DNA from: Mucilaginibacter sp.
GTDB taxonomy: Bacteria > Bacteroidota > Bacteroidia > Sphingobacteriales > Sphingobacteriaceae
DNA: 64,000 nucleotides
Assembly: GCA_028288025.1 (NCBI GenBank)
Contig: JAQBOM010000018.1
Coordinates: forward strand, 1-64,000
Direction: 5' to 3'
A program made the position numbers and the translations under genes. Below are positions 10,856 to 20,600 of the stretch, in pieces (positions within the stretch are counted from its first letter, which is position 1; the number at the start of each line of letters is the position of its first letter). Under the pieces are notes generated by a model. The model was not told where the DNA came from. It saw nothing but the letters and a program-made list of their open reading frames with translations, and ran no database searches.

Positions 10856-10952
10856 AGAGGCAAGAACCAAGATTCAAGAGCCAGGAGTCAAGACAAGAAA
10901 AAAGATTAATCGTTAAAACCGTCTTGGCTCTTGCTTCTTGACTCTTGGTTCT
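10856..10952. repeat. Tandem-unit hairpin (CCAAGA-type)
   Basis: The left arm carries GAACCAAGATTCAAGAG-like units and the right arm (10921-10952) carries their complement, TCTTGGCTCTTGCTTCTTG-like units. About 25 bp of loop lies between them. It ends directly before the histidine kinase start codon at 10969, so it would lie in or just ahead of that gene's leader. Confidence 0.6.
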
Positions 10953-10968
10953 ATTAAATATTTATGAA

Positions 10969-12054
10969 ATGATCTTTCCAAAATCAAAAAGCACGCTGGT
11001 AACAATCATCATCCATATCCTGATATGGGCGGCTTTCGGCCTGATCTATTTTTTCCAGCCGATAACCTGGAACATTGCAGTACCTTACCAGCTGTGGATA
11101 AAACAGAGTATTATACTGGGCCTGGCAATTATTGCCTATTACCTGAACTCGTTTGTACTGGTGCCGCGGTTTTTGTTAAAGGGTCGCAACGGGATCTATT
11201 TCCTGATTTTGATAACGGTAACTCCTTTAATCGTTATAATCAGCGGGTACCTTGACCAATGGCTTAATATGCACCAGCTAATGGATGCCGCGTTTCACCG
11301 GGCCGGGCCACTCCACCGCCATGGCGGAAGAAACCGTATGTGGGATGTGGGTATGCTGGCCGCCCTCGGCGCAACTGTCGCGCTGGTGTTAGGTATAAGC
11401 ACCAGCATTACCGTTATACAAAAATGGCAGACGGATAAACAGGTGCACCAGGAAATGGAACAGGATAAGATCAGTTCGGAGCTATCATTCCTGAAGGCGC
11501 AGATCAACCCGCATTTCTTTTTTAATACACTGAACAATATTTACGCGCTTACGCATATAGATGCCGAAACATCGCGCAAAGCCATACACCAGTTGTCGCG
11601 GATGATGCGCTACGTATTGTATGATACACAAAACAGCATGACCCAGCTGAGCCAGGAGATCGCCTTTATTAAGGATTATATCAGCCTGATGCAGCTGCGG
11701 CTGACCGATGTGGTTAAAATAGATTTCCGAGCTCCGGAGCTGGTTAAAGATATGGCAGTGGCGCCAATGATCTTTTTGCCTTTTGTAGAGAATGCCTTTA
11801 AACATGGGGTTAGCGCGACGCAGCCCAGCTATATCGAGATATCGGTTGAACAGCGCGATAATATCCTTGACTTAAAGGTGGTAAATACTATTATTAAAGA
11901 ACAAAGTAATAACTTAGAGGAAGCCAGCGGCATAGGGCTCAATAACACCCGGCGCAGGCTTGATTTATTATACCCGGGCAAGTACACACTGCTGATCAAT
12001 GAGGATACAGCGGAAAATGTCTATTTGGTACACTTAAAACTCGACCTGTCATGA
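10969..12054 (+). CDS. LytS-type sensor histidine kinase
   Basis: A 361-residue membrane kinase. The ATG at 10969 is preferred over a TTG at 10945 that lies inside a repeat. Four N-terminal membrane segments (about residues 8-30, 42-65, 73-95 and 122-150) are followed by a coiled linker (HQEMEQDKISSELSFLK) and the His_kinase domain with the phospho-acceptor motif LKAQINPHFFFNTLNNIYAL. An ATPase region follows, with an N box (FVENAFKHG) and a G box (GIGLNNTRRRL). It overlaps the response regulator by 4 nt (ATGA), so the pair is translationally coupled. The signal sensed is unknown; there is no extracytoplasmic sensor domain. Confidence 0.95.
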   Translation: MIFPKSKSTLVTIIIHILIWAAFGLIYFFQPITWNIAVPYQLWIKQSIILGLAIIAYYLNSFVLVPRFLLKGRNGIYFLILITVTPLIVIISGYLDQWLNMHQLMDAAFHRAGPLHRHGGRNRMWDVGMLAALGATVALVLGISTSITVIQKWQTDKQVHQEMEQDKISSELSFLKAQINPHFFFNTLNNIYALTHIDAETSRKAIHQLSRMMRYVLYDTQNSMTQLSQEIAFIKDYISLMQLRLTDVVKIDFRAPELVKDMAVAPMIFLPFVENAFKHGVSATQPSYIEISVEQRDNILDLKVVNTIIKEQSNNLEEASGIGLNNTRRRLDLLYPGKYTLLINEDTAENVYLVHLKLDLS

Positions 12055-12812
12055 CATTAAACTGCATTGCTGTTGACGACGAGCCCCTGGCCCTTGGCCT
12101 GGTTTGTTCTTTTATTGAGCAAACCCCGTTTCTGAACCTGGTGGGGCGCTTTTCGAGCGCCGTTGAGGCGTTAAGGGCTATCCATGCCCAAAAGATAGAT
12201 GTTGTTTTTTTAGACATACAAATGCCTGATCTGAACGGTATTGAGTTGGCGCGCGTGCTGGATAACAGCAAGAGCAATAAACCGCGCATTATTTTTACAA
12301 CGGCCTATAACCAGTTTGCGCTGGAGGGCTACCGTGTCGACGCCCTCGATTACCTGCTTAAGCCATTTAATTACGAAGAGTTTTTGCACGCCGCCAACAA
12401 AGCCCTGGCCTATGGCGAACTGCTTGAAAAATCAAACGCCGTCCCTGCCGCCAATGCGCCTTCTCCTGCGGCAGCAGAGGAACGGATAGAAGATGAATAC
12501 TTATTTCTAAAGGTGGAGTACCAGCTGGTGCGTATCGCGTTGAATGATATTCTATACATTGAAGGGCTGAAGGATTATGTGAAGGTATGGCTCAAAAATA
12601 TTGAAAAGCCTATCCTGTCGCTCACCAGCCTTAAATCGCTCGAAGAAAAGCTGCCCGCCAAACGCTTTATGCGCGTACACCGCTCGTTTATCGTTTCGCT
12701 GGATAAGATCAACTCTATTACCCGCAACGCGCTGCAGATCGGCAAGGTAAATATTACCGTTGGCGACCAGTATAAAGAAGGGTTCAGCAAGTTTTTGAGT
12801 AAGTGGGTGTAA
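12051..12812 (+). CDS. LytTR-family response regulator
   Basis: A 253-residue two-domain regulator. The receiver domain has acidic residues D9/D10, the phospho-acceptor D55 in VVFLDIQMP, the switch Thr in FTTAYN, and the Lys in YLLKPF. A Pro/Ala-rich linker (about 129-143) leads to a LytTR DNA-binding domain (residues 150-250; YIEGLKDYVKV, FMRVHRSFIV). It is coupled to the kinase by a 4-nt overlap. Three nearby minus-strand genes have 21-bp-spaced octamer pairs upstream that match the geometry of LytTR operators, so it probably controls the barrel protein, the small secreted protein and the GH3 enzyme. That link is inference. Confidence 0.95.
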   Translation: MTLNCIAVDDEPLALGLVCSFIEQTPFLNLVGRFSSAVEALRAIHAQKIDVVFLDIQMPDLNGIELARVLDNSKSNKPRIIFTTAYNQFALEGYRVDALDYLLKPFNYEEFLHAANKALAYGELLEKSNAVPAANAPSPAAAEERIEDEYLFLKVEYQLVRIALNDILYIEGLKDYVKVWLKNIEKPILSLTSLKSLEEKLPAKRFMRVHRSFIVSLDKINSITRNALQIGKVNITVGDQYKEGFSKFLSKWV

Positions 12813-12815
12813 GGA

Positions 12816-12855
12816 GGAGTTGTAAGTTGCAGGTTGTGAGTTGCAGGAGTGAAAA
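12816..12855. repeat. Short tandem unit array (AGTTGCAGG-type)
   Basis: Repeated AGTTGTAAGTTGCAGG-like units follow the LytTR stop codon. Only one arm of the usual tandem-unit hairpin is evident here. Confidence 0.35.
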
Positions 12856-12889
12856 GTTCGGTCGAAAGTCGCCTATAAAGACAAGTGTT

Positions 12890-12993
12890 TTATTTTAGTT
12901 TTTTGTGTAAAACAAAAATAATTCAATTTCTTATTTTAGTTTTTTGGCAAAAACTAAAATAACAACTATCTTTATTTTAGTTAAGTAAAATAA
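12890..12993 (+). promoter_or_regulatory. Three palindromic operators at a 41-bp period before fic
   Basis: TTATTTTAGTT begins at 12890, 12931 and 12972, exactly 41 bp apart. Each copy is the left half of a palindrome. The middle one is perfect (14-bp arms, 12931-12944 and 12949-12962, loop TGGC). The first (right arm 12909-12921) and third (right arm 12983-12993) each have one mismatch. The third ends 2 bp before the fic start codon, so a bound protein would block transcription or translation. A period of 41 bp is close to four helical turns, which places the sites on one face of the DNA. The Fic protein itself, with its C-terminal winged-helix-like domain, is the obvious candidate ligand. 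Confidence 0.75.
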
Positions 12994-12995
12994 GG

Positions 12996-14120
12996 ATGAA
13001 AACATTTCGGGCAGGCAGGTACATTAATCACGGTCATTATAATAGCTTTCAACCCAATTTAATCAATAAGGACTGGAAACTGGATGACATGGAGATCATT
13101 CATCTTCTTGGCCAGGCCGACAGGCAATTAGGCCGGCTGGATATGTTTTCGAAGTACACGCCAAACCTCGAAATGTTTATCCAAATGCACGTAACCAAAG
13201 AGGCTACGCAATCCAGCAAAATTGAAGGCACTAAGACCAATATCGAAGAGGCCTTAATGGAGAAAGAAGATGTTGCATTAAGTCAGATAGACGACTGGAC
13301 CGAAGTGCAAAATTATATTGGTGCTATGAATTACGGGATGGCGCGTTTGCAGGAACTGCCCTTTTCATCCCGCCTGATCAAAGAAACCCACGGTATAATA
13401 TTAAAGGGAACGAGGGGAGAGCAAAAACATCCGGGAAACTTCAGGACAAGCCAAAACTGGATTGGAGGGGCAACCATTGCCGATGCTGTGTTTATACCTC
13501 CGGTCCATACGGGCATAAATGATTTAATGAGCGATCTGGAAAAGTTTGCCCATAATGAATCTGCATATTTTCCTGAATTACTTAAAATAGCATTAATACA
13601 TTACCAATTTGAAACCATTCACCCATTTTTAGACGGCAACGGGCGGGTGGGGCGTCTATTCATTACTTTATACCTGGTTGCAAAGGGGATATTGAAGCAA
13701 CCTATTTTATATATATCCGACTTTTTTGAAAAAAACCGAAGTCACTACTACGATAATTTAATGCGCGTACGCTTGAGTAATGATATAAATCAATGGTTCA
13801 AATTTTTTTTAGCTGGCGTTGTTGAAACGGCGACCAAGGCCATTTCAACCTTTGAACAGATACTTCAATTGCAAAAAATATCCGAAATTAAAATAAGCAC
13901 ATTGGGAAGCAGGGCGGCAAATGCGCAAAAGGTATTGAATCATTTATATCAGAAGCCAATAATAAATACAGCTGCTATAGGTAAAGTAACCGGGTTATCC
14001 GTGGCTTCGGCGTATAAGCTTGCACGCGACATGGAAAAACTCGGAATTTTTAAAGAAGTAACCGGCGCGCAAAGGGGTAAGTCGTATGTATTTGAAGATT
14101 ATTTGAATTTATTCAGGTAA
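12996..14120 (+). CDS. Fic family protein with N-terminal inhibitory motif and C-terminal winged helix
   Basis: A 374-residue Fic protein. The Fic core has the full catalytic motif HPFLDGNGRVGR (residues 209-220), so it should transfer AMP (or another nucleotide part) to a hydroxyl side chain of a target. The alpha-inhibitory motif S/TxxxEG is present upstream as SSKIEG (residues 73-78), which marks a class II, self-inhibited Fic. The C-terminal 70 residues (AIGKVTGLSVASAYKLARDMEKLGIF) look like a winged helix-turn-helix of the type used by Fic/DNA-binding proteins. No separate antitoxin gene is adjacent, in keeping with built-in inhibition. Three palindromes at a 41-bp period precede the start, which suggests autoregulation. 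Confidence 0.95.
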   Translation: MKTFRAGRYINHGHYNSFQPNLINKDWKLDDMEIIHLLGQADRQLGRLDMFSKYTPNLEMFIQMHVTKEATQSSKIEGTKTNIEEALMEKEDVALSQIDDWTEVQNYIGAMNYGMARLQELPFSSRLIKETHGIILKGTRGEQKHPGNFRTSQNWIGGATIADAVFIPPVHTGINDLMSDLEKFAHNESAYFPELLKIALIHYQFETIHPFLDGNGRVGRLFITLYLVAKGILKQPILYISDFFEKNRSHYYDNLMRVRLSNDINQWFKFFLAGVVETATKAISTFEQILQLQKISEIKISTLGSRAANAQKVLNHLYQKPIINTAAIGKVTGLSVASAYKLARDMEKLGIFKEVTGAQRGKSYVFEDYLNLFR

Positions 14121-14150
14121 GTACTCCGTTCCAGGGAATTTCACCCACAT

Positions 14151-14186
14151 AAAAAAACGCCCTCAAATTATTGAAGGCGTTTTTTG
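14151..14186. terminator. Bidirectional intrinsic terminator
   Basis: AAAAAACGCC and GGCGTTTTTT arms pair around a TCAA/TTGA inner stem with one bulge, and carry A and T runs on both sides. It lies between the convergent fic gene and the 125-residue secreted-protein gene and can serve both. Confidence 0.8.
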
Positions 14187-14205
14187 GTTTTAAGTCCCGG
14201 TGGCG

Positions 14206-14583
14206 TTATCCTTTTATAAAAAACATTTTGTTCTTGCCATCGGTGTAAACGTGGATGTCTTGTTTTACTGATTTATCTTTTGAAACAACTTCGATGGTGT
14301 AGTCCCCTTCATCCAGTTTGGTTAAGATGTAATTTTTTTCCATCCCTGCCTTGTTAGATAGTTCGTCTTTTCTTAAAACGTTTCCGTCTTCGTCCGAGAT
14401 GATAACAATAGCCTTGCCGGCCAGGTTTTTTTCTGCCTTAACGGCCAGGCCCTGTAAGGATGGCAATGAGGTAAAAGTTATGGCATTCAGTTTTGGCGGG
14501 ATAGCTGCCTTTGCGGGAATTGTGGCAAAAACGCTTGCGCCTGCCAGCAATAATAGTGCGGTGAATTTGATGGATGCTTTCAT
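14206..14583 (-). CDS. Small secreted protein with a beta-sandwich-like domain
   Basis: A 125-residue exported protein with a signal peptide (MKASIKFTALLLLAGASVFA). The mature part (residues 35-125) has the strand pattern of secretion-associated sandwich domains common in Bacteroidota: FTSLPSLQGLAVKAEKNLAGKAIVIISDEDGNVL, then LDEGDYTIEVVSKDK, then a short final strand. No enzyme motif or lipobox is seen. Function is unknown. An ATAGACCA pair at 21-bp spacing lies 89-117 bp upstream, which links it to the nearby LytTR regulator. Confidence 0.75.
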   Translation of the reverse strand: MKASIKFTALLLLAGASVFATIPAKAAIPPKLNAITFTSLPSLQGLAVKAEKNLAGKAIVIISDEDGNVLRKDELSNKAGMEKNYILTKLDEGDYTIEVVSKDKSVKQDIHVYTDGKNKMFFIKG

Positions 14584-18354: not shown

Positions 18355-19134
18355 ATGAAAGAAGGCCAGACACTTTGGACAAAAGATGAATTGATGTTAG
18401 CCATCAATTTGTACAGCAAATTGACATTTGGCCAAATGTCGCAAACCAACCGTGATATAATTGAACTAGCTCATCTTATTGGCCGAACACCCGGCTCTGT
18501 AGCTTATAAATTAGTGAATTTTGCCAGCCTCGACCCTAGGCTAGCCCAAAAAGGAATGGTAAATGCCAGTAAGTTGGATAGGGCGGTTTGGCAGGAATAT
18601 ATGAACAATTGGGGCGAAGTATTTTTTGAGAGCGAAAAGCTGCTTGCCAAGAAAAAGCACACCACAATTGAAAAAGTGTACGAAATAGACCTTGATAACC
18701 TGCCGAATGTTCAAGGTAAGGAACGGGAGCGTTTGGTTATGGTAAGGGTCAATCAGTCGCAATTTCGGAAAATCGTGTTGTCTAATTATAATAATCAATG
18801 CTGTGTCACCGGGATACGCATGCCGGAATTGATAGTCGCCAGTCATATTGCGCCATGGAGCATCGATGAGGGTAATAGATTAAGCCCTCAAAATGGATTG
18901 GCCTTAAATACTTTGCACGACAAGGCTTTTGACAGGCATCTGATTACCGTAACCAAGGATCTTAAAATTAAAATATCTTCTAGGTTTTATAATTATGAGG
19001 ATGTATTGAGCATCAAGCAAAATTTTATAGATTTTGATGGCAAGGATCTGATCGCCCCTAAAAAGTTTTATCCTGAAATTGAATTTCTAAAAATCCATAA
19101 CGATAAGTTTGCTTTGGTTGAAGCTAACATCTAA
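18355..19134 (+). CDS. HNH endonuclease, restriction-like
   Basis: A 259-residue nuclease. Residues 8-60 form a helical DNA-binding-like head (WTKDELMLAINLY, IGRTPGSVAYKL). Residues 147-195 hold the HNH fold of the HNH_2 type: CCVTG (149-153), ASHIAPW (162-168), PQNGLALN (178-185) and LHDKAFD (187-193). Proteins of this layout are usually annotated as putative restriction or defence nucleases; no partner methylase is seen. It starts at the base after the zinc-ribbon stop codon. The pair lies between a vsr remnant and a duplicated promoter block, which suggests a mobile defence cassette. The cleaved substrate is unknown. Confidence 0.9.
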   Translation: MKEGQTLWTKDELMLAINLYSKLTFGQMSQTNRDIIELAHLIGRTPGSVAYKLVNFASLDPRLAQKGMVNASKLDRAVWQEYMNNWGEVFFESEKLLAKKKHTTIEKVYEIDLDNLPNVQGKERERLVMVRVNQSQFRKIVLSNYNNQCCVTGIRMPELIVASHIAPWSIDEGNRLSPQNGLALNTLHDKAFDRHLITVTKDLKIKISSRFYNYEDVLSIKQNFIDFDGKDLIAPKKFYPEIEFLKIHNDKFALVEANI

Positions 19135-19180
19135 AGTTCACTTATATCCGATTGACAAACCTTCTCCTTCCTTTTATCTT
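19134..19180 (+). promoter_or_regulatory. Duplicated promoter block, copy 2
   Basis: Second copy of the 23-bp block, starting at the base after the HNH stop codon. TTGAC lies at 19152-19156 and TATCTT at 19175-19180, and the next start codon is at 19186. Spacing from TTGAC to the -7 box is identical to copy 1. Confidence 0.6.
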
Positions 19181-19185
19181 GGCGG

Positions 19186-19521
19186 ATGCCAAATATAAAA
19201 TTCAATTACCTGTACCGCGACGGCGGGAATTATAAAAACTACAGTTCGGTAATTTTTGCTAATCCTGACAATATCGATTTGACGGAATTAGAAAAGTTAA
19301 TCAAATCCAAACTCATCTATGGCGAATGGTTTTATGTTAACGAATGGAAAGTGCCCGATTTGCATTTCGGCACATGGGATAACGAAATCGATCATACGTT
19401 TCATGAGTTCGAAAGCGTGGAGTATACGGATGAAGCTGAAAATTCGGACATTAATTGCATAGAATTTAAAGCGACAATCGAGAAGGTAGTTACAGTAATA
19501 AATAACTACTTCCTAGGATAA
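19186..19521 (+). CDS. Conserved-looking hypothetical protein of the accessory island
   Basis: A 111-residue acidic soluble protein (IKFNYLYRDGGNYKNY, then helices around TELEKLIKSKL, then WKVPDLHFGTWDNE). It has no signal, membrane segment or catalytic motif that I recognise. The start is set by the promoter block ending 5 bp earlier. Its 3' end overlaps the convergent DUF262 gene by 16 bp. Shared promoter sequence with the HNH unit suggests common control. Function unknown. Confidence 0.7.
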   Translation: MPNIKFNYLYRDGGNYKNYSSVIFANPDNIDLTELEKLIKSKLIYGEWFYVNEWKVPDLHFGTWDNEIDHTFHEFESVEYTDEAENSDINCIEFKATIEKVVTVINNYFLG

Positions 19522-20600
19522 AGCGCATTTAATACACCTTCTTCTTTTGTCATTAAAAGAGTTTTTAGATATTTATCACGTAAAACACGTTCTTTCTTAT
19601 TATTTACCGCCTCTTTTGCAGCTAATTTATACTCTTCCGTAAGGCTATCCTCTAGTTGATTCAATCGGCTTTTAATTTTCGAAGCCGTTAAATGCTGAAT
19701 TATTGGTTCATAATTCATATATAAAACATAAATGATTGAGAAGAAATTCGCTTTGTTAAGCCAATAAGAACCCGGCGGAAGTCCAATCTCAAGGTAAAGC
19801 TTAGCTACTTTTTCAAGTTTTTCGACAATTTCATCTTTATTTGGATAATTGTCTTTGTATTCGTCAAGGATTGAAACAGGGATATTTCGGTTAAAAAAGC
19901 CTCTTTCTATTGTTGCTAAAACATTTAAAACAATCATTAAATGGACTTTCCTCGAAATTTCATAACCAGAAAAAACGCCAGACTCTAAAATTAATTTGTG
20001 AAAATTTGTTAACTTCCTTTTTTCACACCAATTGATGAAGCCTTCTGGAATATTTGGATCCAAAGAATGCGTGTCTTTTTCTTTTGGCAATCTTAACTCC
20101 TTAGACAATAAATTTGCAACTAGCATGAACTCAGAAGGTGCGTATTCGGTCGCTAATTTCTCTATGTTTGTTAAGCTATAAAAGGTCCTGTTAAGCCTTT
20201 GAAATACACTTTTTATATTGGGATCACTGGCCTCCATTTGCAATTCAATAATTGCTATTTCGTAGGTCAGAAAATTATCCTTACTTTCCCGTGTTAAGTC
20301 TTCGAAATATTGGTCATCAACATCAAACGCATTATCTAAATATTCGATTATACTACGCATCCTCTGCTGTCCATCGACTACCAATGATGTTGATGTAAAA
20401 TTATCAACATCAATTCCTCCCTTGGCTAAAAAAATTTGTGGGAAGGGAAAACCCAATAAGATAGTCTTTATAAAATCTTGTTTATGAATTAATCTCCAGA
20501 CCAGGTTTCTTTGAAAGTATGGGGCTAGTATAATTTTATTTCTTTTAATATCACCTACTATGTCGATCAGTTGTCTTGATCTTACTGAATATTTTATCAT
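19506..20600 (-). CDS. DUF262 (GmrS-like N-terminal) domain protein
   Basis: A 364-residue protein whose N-terminal half is a DUF262 domain of the ParB/sulfiredoxin-like fold: PYFQRNLVW (27-35), FPFPQIFL (51-58) and DGQQR (76-80). In GmrSD, SspE and BrxU these motifs couple nucleotide hydrolysis to DNA restriction. The DUF1524 HNH nuclease that often follows is absent; the C-terminal half is helical and Lys/Glu-rich. It overlaps the upstream nucleotidyltransferase gene by 4 nt (ATGA), so the two are translationally coupled. Base composition is clearly more AT-rich than the flanking core genes, a sign of transfer. It is likely one part of a defence or toxin-antitoxin module. Confidence 0.85.
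   Translation of the reverse strand: MIKYSVRSRQLIDIVGDIKRNKIILAPYFQRNLVWRLIHKQDFIKTILLGFPFPQIFLAKGGIDVDNFTSTSLVVDGQQRMRSIIEYLDNAFDVDDQYFEDLTRESKDNFLTYEIAIIELQMEASDPNIKSVFQRLNRTFYSLTNIEKLATEYAPSEFMLVANLLSKELRLPKEKDTHSLDPNIPEGFINWCEKRKLTNFHKLILESGVFSGYEISRKVHLMIVLNVLATIERGFFNRNIPVSILDEYKDNYPNKDEIVEKLEKVAKLYLEIGLPPGSYWLNKANFFSIIYVLYMNYEPIIQHLTASKIKSRLNQLEDSLTEEYKLAAKEAVNNKKERVLRDKYLKTLLMTKEEGVLNALYPRK

Follow-up and report, generated by a model that had tools for sequence, protein, structure and literature searches.

Our analysis of a 64,000-nucleotide stretch of DNA from Mucilaginibacter sp. (contig JAQBOM010000018.1, positions 1 to 64,000; hereafter the window) points to a Fic enzyme that would control its own synthesis. 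The fic gene encodes a SoFic-type protein with a C-terminal winged helix-turn-helix (HTH) domain and is preceded by three regularly spaced palindromes, and we assign a probability of roughly 0.88 to the reading that dimers of Fic bind this array and repress the fic promoter. By comparison of orthologs we observed that the array, its period and its phasing relative to putative promoter elements are conserved and that the letters of the half-sites co-vary with the recognition helix of Fic. From these patterns we infer the binding itself, the repression, the dimeric mode of binding and the cooperativity, the last of these from the periodicity of sites on what would be one and the same face of the DNA.

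Palindromes in front of fic

The three palindromes lie after the stop codon of the gene for a LytTR response regulator (12051-12812) and before fic (12996-14120; Table 1). Their forward half-sites, TTATTTTAGTT, start at 12890, 12931 and 12972, and the exact 41-bp period claimed by the original prediction holds for these starts and not for the dyad centres, which are 41 and 36 bp apart because palindrome 3 is without the 10-bp spacer. The same prediction described every site as a sequence joined to its complement, which is accurate for the middle palindrome, where the predicted 14-bp perfect arms were found around a 4-nt loop, and is inexact for palindromes 1 and 3, where one arm pair is mismatched. 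The last site, which had been said to touch the start codon, ends two bases short of the ATG at 12996. Short palindromes arise easily in a sequence as poor in GC as the 116-bp stretch of the array (19%), and we therefore compared it with 2000 dinucleotide shuffles of the same stretch. Three equally spaced 11-mers were obtained in 2 shuffles, an 11-bp perfect inverted repeat in 29 and arms of 14 bp in 1, and the three 11-mers and the 11-bp inverted repeat occurred jointly in none. Upstream of the operator array, directly after the LytTR stop codon, positions 12819-12846 hold two near-identical 14-nt copies (GTTGTAAGTTGCAG and GTTGTGAGTTGCAG).

Conservation of the array among orthologs

The main set consisted of 94 orthologs, namely 14 loci from a first search (L001-L014, the window's own included) and the best 80 of 585 relatives; the first search gave 30 loci, and L015-L030 were read by eye only. 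Their titles are mostly of Bacteroidota, with Deltaproteobacteria, Gallionellales, Thiobacillus, Nitrotoga and others also represented. For the 92 of 94 loci with at least 100 bp upstream of the gene, the upstream DNA was compared with itself on one strand, free of any assumption about the motif. Before fic, 67 of the 92 orthologs repeat a 9-mer (at most one mismatch) at exactly 41 bp, against a shuffle mean of 4.5; a look for similar arrays at other fic genes with a winged HTH had been named as a check by the original prediction. Repeats at 40 bp were present in 24 loci (shuffles 5.0) and at 82 bp in 32 (shuffles 3.8), while control stretches gave the 41-bp lag in 1 of 82 loci at -700 to -530 and in 1 of 92 inside the gene. 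A direct repeat at 39-43 bp together with an inverted repeat at 18-23 bp was found before fic in 80 of the 92 orthologs (shuffles 7.2); at least one of the two signals was present in 90, a looser count that says less because shuffles reach 39.2. Furthermore, the exact 41-bp lag was detected in 9 of 15 checked loci with titles from outside Bacteroidota.

The geometry of the sites was determined by a search for pairs of inverted 11-mers with a forward arm beginning TTA. Gaps of 10 (41 cases), 11 (19 cases) and 0 (7 cases) were found, along with gaps of 3 (23 cases) and 2 (14 cases), which by our reading of the printed pairs come mostly from reverse-to-forward pairing between adjacent palindromes. 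Expressed in 9-bp units, the forward half-site is followed by the reverse one 23 or 24 bp further on, start to start, and 17 or 18 bp later by the next forward one, so that the half-sites appear to alternate in orientation at steps of about two helical turns along one DNA face. The geometry is constant among the orthologs and the letters differ, with the consensus half-sites TTATTTTAG, TTATTTAAG, TTATTGCAA, TTAGTTAAG, TTAGTTCAG, TTATTATAC, TTATTCAAG and others. In Tannerella forsythia (L083) fic is preceded by a row of almost identical 41-bp units, which looks as if it had recently grown by duplication. Among the distant Fic relatives (29-37% identity), L015 and L017-L021 seem, as judged by eye and without a control, to have inverted repeats with other letters and spacing before the gene, and operators in the own promoter may for this reason be a general feature of Fic-HTH genes.

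Co-variation of half-site letters with the recognition helix

If Fic itself binds the array, the letters of the half-sites are expected to co-vary with residues of the protein that reads them. Half-sites were called with a loose motif prior and without protein information; since the caller assumes the 41-bp lattice and the 23/24 offset, the figures given above for both were taken from the free lag test and the pair search. The main set for this test comprised 81 loci, since the alignment excluded L099 (300 amino acids) and the half-site filter removed 12 of the remaining 93. Mutual information was calculated between each half-site position and each of 374 protein columns and compared with shuffles. 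Half-site positions 2, 3, 5 and 8 barely vary, and position 1 (70 T, 8 C and 3 A in the 81 loci) had no link to the recognition helix. For the other positions, ranking by excess information in the 101 combined loci placed residue 336 first for position 4, residue 337 for positions 6 and 7 and residue 341 for position 9, all of which fall within the six residues opening the modelled recognition helix (336-348). In the main set residue 337 stood out for position 7 (z 19.4; next column 7.8) and residue 341 ranked first for position 9. The co-variation with these three residues supports the proposal of the original prediction that the cluster serves autorepression through the C-terminus of Fic.

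The clearest link is that between residue 337 and base 7. Ala337 is accompanied by T7 in 22 of 22 loci, Pro337 by A7 in 31 of 33 and Val337 by A7 in 14 of 15 (45 of 48 for Pro and Val together), and the two-by-two comparison (Ala/T 22, Ala/A 0, Pro-Val/T 1, Pro-Val/A 45) gives a Fisher p of 6e-17. To allow for the shared ancestry of the sequences, trees were built from Fic residues 1-300 only. On such a tree the class of residue 337 switches 9 times and the base 9 or 10 times. On well-supported branches six independent pairs could be drawn, and in 191 of 200 random pairings residue and base change together in every one of the six; in the remaining 9 pairings five pairs agree and in one the base is the same in both members, none being opposite. 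The sign test gave a median p of 0.031 (range to 0.063), a second tree analysis was alike, and over all branches, supported or not, each tree contains 9 pairs. The tree test is thus significant but small, and residue-base links other than that of 337 with base 7 are weaker.

Held-out loci

The same half-site caller was applied to loci that had played no part in the main set, 24 on viral contigs and 29 new ones from 395 genomes of the phylum. Exclusion of L136, of two loci that the motif finder did not place (L144 and L154) and of 4 identical proteins left 46 of them. A lag of 40-42 bp was present in 26 of the 46 by a looser 8-mer test (shuffles 8.9). Half-sites were called in 20 of the 46, and 10 of these carry Ala, Pro or Val at position 337. 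All 10 scorable loci obeyed the residue-337 rule (nine Pro/Val, one Ala). One of them, L114, hardly differs from L100 in the main set, and its removal leaves 9 of 9; these nine share 42-78% identity with their closest main-set protein. In addition, new residues came with new letters: C7 accompanied Asn337 in 4 of 5 loci, and C6 accompanied Gln337 in 2 of 2 loci, or in 3 of 3 once the main set is counted in (post hoc). Taken over both sets, residue 337 apparently follows a code in which Ala would specify T7, Pro or Val A7, Asn C7 and Gln C6. Four of the Fic relatives on contigs classed as viral (L122, L124, L125 and L134) have Asn337 and half-sites TTATTTCA.

Promoter layout and the proposed mechanism

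The -7 consensus of Bacteroidota promoters is TAnnTTTG. Among orthologs this motif begins 12 or 13 nt after the start of a reverse half-site in 27 of 86 loci (shuffles 0.4), and the commonest gap between a TTG and the TAnnTTTG is 20 nt (14 cases). In the window the box TATCTTTA starts 13 nt past the reverse half-site start, the commonest offset in the orthologs, and together with the upstream TTG it fits the ortholog distances exactly, which would place palindrome 2 over the -33 region and palindrome 3 over the likely transcription start. Activators normally bind upstream of the promoter, and sites lying on top of it argue for repression.

The mechanism we propose is that Fic dimers would read inverted pairs of 9-bp half-sites, here TTATTTTAG, through the C-terminal winged HTH. 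The half-site starts within a pair are 23 bp or about two turns apart and adjacent pairs recur every 41 bp or about four turns, so dimers would be lined up along one DNA face. With the -33 region and the expected start covered and the -7 box enclosed between the two palindromes, bound Fic would exclude RNA polymerase and the level of the protein would be kept low. The benefit is probably that a potentially toxic AMP-transferase is held at a safe level and can establish itself safely after horizontal transfer; restraint of a toxic enzyme is suggested by analogy with Sofic of E. coli, which PMC12249575 describes as a toxic anti-phage AMP-transferase and the wild type of which proved impossible to clone behind a single lac operator.

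A further idea, which we regard as speculative and rather improbable, is that the array also serves as an assembly track. As half-sites alternate at 23- and 18-bp steps on one face, neighbouring molecules might meet through two different Fic interfaces and polymerise; the bound enzyme might also be kept inactive, and loss or takeover of the promoter caused by a phage would then release both the stored Fic in active form and a burst of newly made Fic. Any such link between DNA binding and enzyme activity is our conjecture. If true, it would describe a phage alarm of one gene, similar to a toxin-antitoxin system, with the operator as the antitoxin.

Table 1. Features of the fic promoter and gene in the window.
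Feature	Position	Strand	Description
Operator palindrome 1	12890..12921	.	TTATTTTAGTT-N10-AACAAAAATAA; 10/11 arm pairs
Operator palindrome 2	12931..12962	.	TTATTTTAGTT-N10-AACTAAAATAA; 11/11 arm pairs; putative -33 TTG at centre
Putative -33 element TTG	12944..12946	+	20 nt before -7 box
Putative Bacteroidota -7 box TATCTTTA	12967..12974	+	one base off TAnnTTTG; between palindromes 2 and 3
Operator palindrome 3	12972..12993	.	TTATTTTAGTT-N0-AAGTAAAATAA; 10/11 arm pairs
fic	12996..14120	+	SoFic-type, 374 aa: Fic_N + Fic (HPFLDGNGR) + C-terminal winged HTH; inhibitory motif S73SKIEG78
C-terminal winged HTH, residues 307-374	13914..14117	+	
Recognition helix, residues 336-348	14001..14039	+	residues 336, 337, 341 co-vary with operator

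Evidence against autorepression and alternative explanations

Several observations weigh against autorepression by Fic. The -7 box of the window ends in A, not G. Two loci of the main set (L090 and L111) had neither the direct nor the inverted signal by the k-mer test, 20 of the 46 held-out loci lack the 40-42-bp lag, and several of the records from outside Bacteroidota are metagenome bins, the assignment of which is uncertain. The z values of the co-variation test, that of 19.4 included, ignore ancestry. When the main set is ranked by z, columns 177 (position 4) and 248 (position 6) come first, and for position 6 the z of column 248 is still the higher one in the 101 loci; both lie elsewhere in the protein and hold less information than 336 and 337, and the result for positions 4 and 6 depends on the ranking because z and excess information pick different columns. 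The residue-337 rule is broken by L073 (Pro337 with T7), by one Pro/G and by one Val/C case, and in the sister pair L070 (SKATNY, TTAGTTTAG) and L079 (SKVTNY, TTAGTTCAG) Val is found with C, not A. With the held-out loci added, the tree has only 3 well-supported pairs, which all agree in 194 of 200 pairings (p 0.25). Lys336 is associated with G4 (Fisher p 0.002), yet about 2 of 4 tree pairs agree, and for Arg or Lys337 with a base other than T at position 6 the agreement is weak, 2.4 of 3 pairs. In several of the loci without an array (L111, L119 and L151) another open frame ends directly upstream of fic, and an operon promoter may have taken over control there; a search farther upstream in 13 array-less loci yielded one poor pair only (L162).

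Control of fic by another regulator of the host, with the HTH of Fic in some other role, could account for operators at this place, and another Fic with an HTH, CbFic2, is described in PMC10628234 as binding random DNA at high affinity. The half-site letters, however, follow the recognition helix of Fic itself, and the array persists in records of several phyla, in which the host regulators will not be the same. We also surveyed the neighbours of fic, 454 open frames of at least 90 amino acids in flanks of roughly 1.5 or 4 kb (less where a contig ends), and found no family common to more than 5 of the 94 loci. Regulation by a conserved neighbour was accordingly rejected, as the best-shared family occurs at 5 of 94 loci, at 3 of which (L001-L003) it is plain LytTR synteny; within the surveyed flanks no gene other than fic accompanies the array from locus to locus. 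We therefore judge another host regulator to be very unlikely.

The palindromes could alternatively act as RNA hairpins, forming an attenuator, a terminator or a stability element in the fic leader, since they are able to pair and palindrome 3 may lie partly in the transcript. Judging from the -7 box, however, transcription probably starts downstream of palindromes 1 and 2, a search of 12700-14300 found no terminator-like site, and neither the 41-bp period nor the link to the recognition helix has an explanation at the RNA level, which leaves very little room for such a function. Still less credible is a dispersed repeat, such as a repetitive extragenic palindrome (REP) or an element resembling a miniature inverted-repeat transposable element (MITE), that lies at fic by accident. 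Mobile repeats commonly contain short AT-rich palindromes, but in the source genome, 4.45 Mb long and 92% complete, a search for the N10 pattern with at most 3 mismatches in 22 positions matched palindromes 1 and 2 only, and exact 9-bp half-sites with gaps of 0-16 matched the middle palindrome only, so that the explanation is refuted as far as two patterns and a genome of this completeness show. Moreover, the palindromes are found at fic in most orthologs examined while their letters diverge. The original prediction had named a repeat dispersed among unrelated genes as the finding that would overturn it, and neither the genome, as far as the two patterns reach, nor the orthologs, with both repeat signals far above the shuffles, offered one.

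The Fic protein

Pfam matched the Fic_N and Fic domains, and the HTH was without a Pfam match. The inhibitory motif of Fic proteins has the form [S/T]xxxE[G/N]. It is N-terminal here, and its S73, E77 and G78 do not vary among the 32 aligned sequences, nor do H, P, F, G, N, G and R of the Fic motif HPFx[D/E]GNGR, which begins at residue 209. The form of the inhibitory motif agrees with the examples in PMC10628234 and PMC9755527. An AlphaFold2 model from this 32-sequence alignment (mean predicted local distance difference test score, pLDDT, 87) places the helices of the C-terminal winged HTH at 304-319, 325-332 and 336-348, and its best Foldseek match was SoFic (3eqx, 362 columns). The PADLOC SoFic model matched residues 14-373 (E 1e-116, 388 bits), and the cut-off of the NCBIfam SoFic equivalog was missed (154.9 vs 550 bits). 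Hence, Fic is a relative in the wider SoFic family, below the equivalog level. One fic copy was found in the source genome (E up to 0.001).

Comparison with known systems

Autorepression by a Fic-HTH protein is known from CccR of Yersinia pseudotuberculosis, which shares with Fic of the window the Fic enzyme, the C-terminal HTH and the inverted repeats in its own promoter. CccR acts as a dimer and represses that promoter, where the footprint protects AGATAATCAT-N26-ATGATAATCT (PMC9755527). Strong binding by CccR needs the HTH and the dimer contact, and its DNA-binding helices are 70.2 A apart (PMC9755527). The half-sites described here, 23 bp apart, are separated by about 78 A on straight DNA, and a Fic dimer of the CccR shape would therefore be a plausible reader; the comparison is drawn from the published description of CccR. 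In contrast to the one inverted pair (N26) of CccR, the array consists of tandem pairs with 10-11 bp between 11-bp arms and a 41-bp step, and the half-sites of CccR, which is secreted by a type VI system, are 36 bp apart instead of 23 (PMC9755527).

SoFic of Shewanella (SO_4266, PDB 3eqx and 3zcn) has the same fold and domain order as Fic of the window, and DNA binding by SoFic was stated in a 2023 paper as not demonstrated (PMC10628234). CbFic2 of Coxiella burnetii (PDB 8cil) is likewise a Fic with a C-terminal HTH, for which DNA binding promotes dimer formation and alters activity; unlike the array described here, the DNA tested with CbFic2 was random, and an operator of its own is not reported in the passages covered here (PMC10628234). 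CccR and CbFic2 were the Fic-HTH proteins with DNA binding among the literature matches listed. Autorepression through multiple inverted repeats is also a feature of AbiEi antitoxin operators, for which cooperativity is reported, but AbiEi belongs to a two-gene toxin-antitoxin system, whereas here the enzyme and the presumed repressor are one chain (PMC7319586). A Fic operator array was absent from the literature matches listed, a coverage that mostly leaves out subscription papers and preprints, and neither the phasing of such an array nor its spread nor a recognition code was met among them.

For SoFic-type Fic proteins, anti-phage members included, the comparison by itself points to the DNA, its geometry and the probable contact residues for a role of the winged HTH. 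It also yields candidate pairs of operator and matching repressor for Bacteroidota and suggests a way for a single toxic gene to pass between distant bacteria, carrying its own brake along.

Neighbouring genes

Directly upstream of fic and on the same strand, the window carries a His_kinase histidine kinase gene and the LytTR response regulator gene (together 10945-12812). Among the 94 loci both recur directly upstream of fic only in L001-L003. Further downstream, positions 18355-20600 contain two restriction-like genes, one for an HNH protein (PADLOC HNH, 286 bits) and one with weaker matches to NsnA, PD-T4-2_A and REase_II, which might form a small defence neighbourhood near fic.
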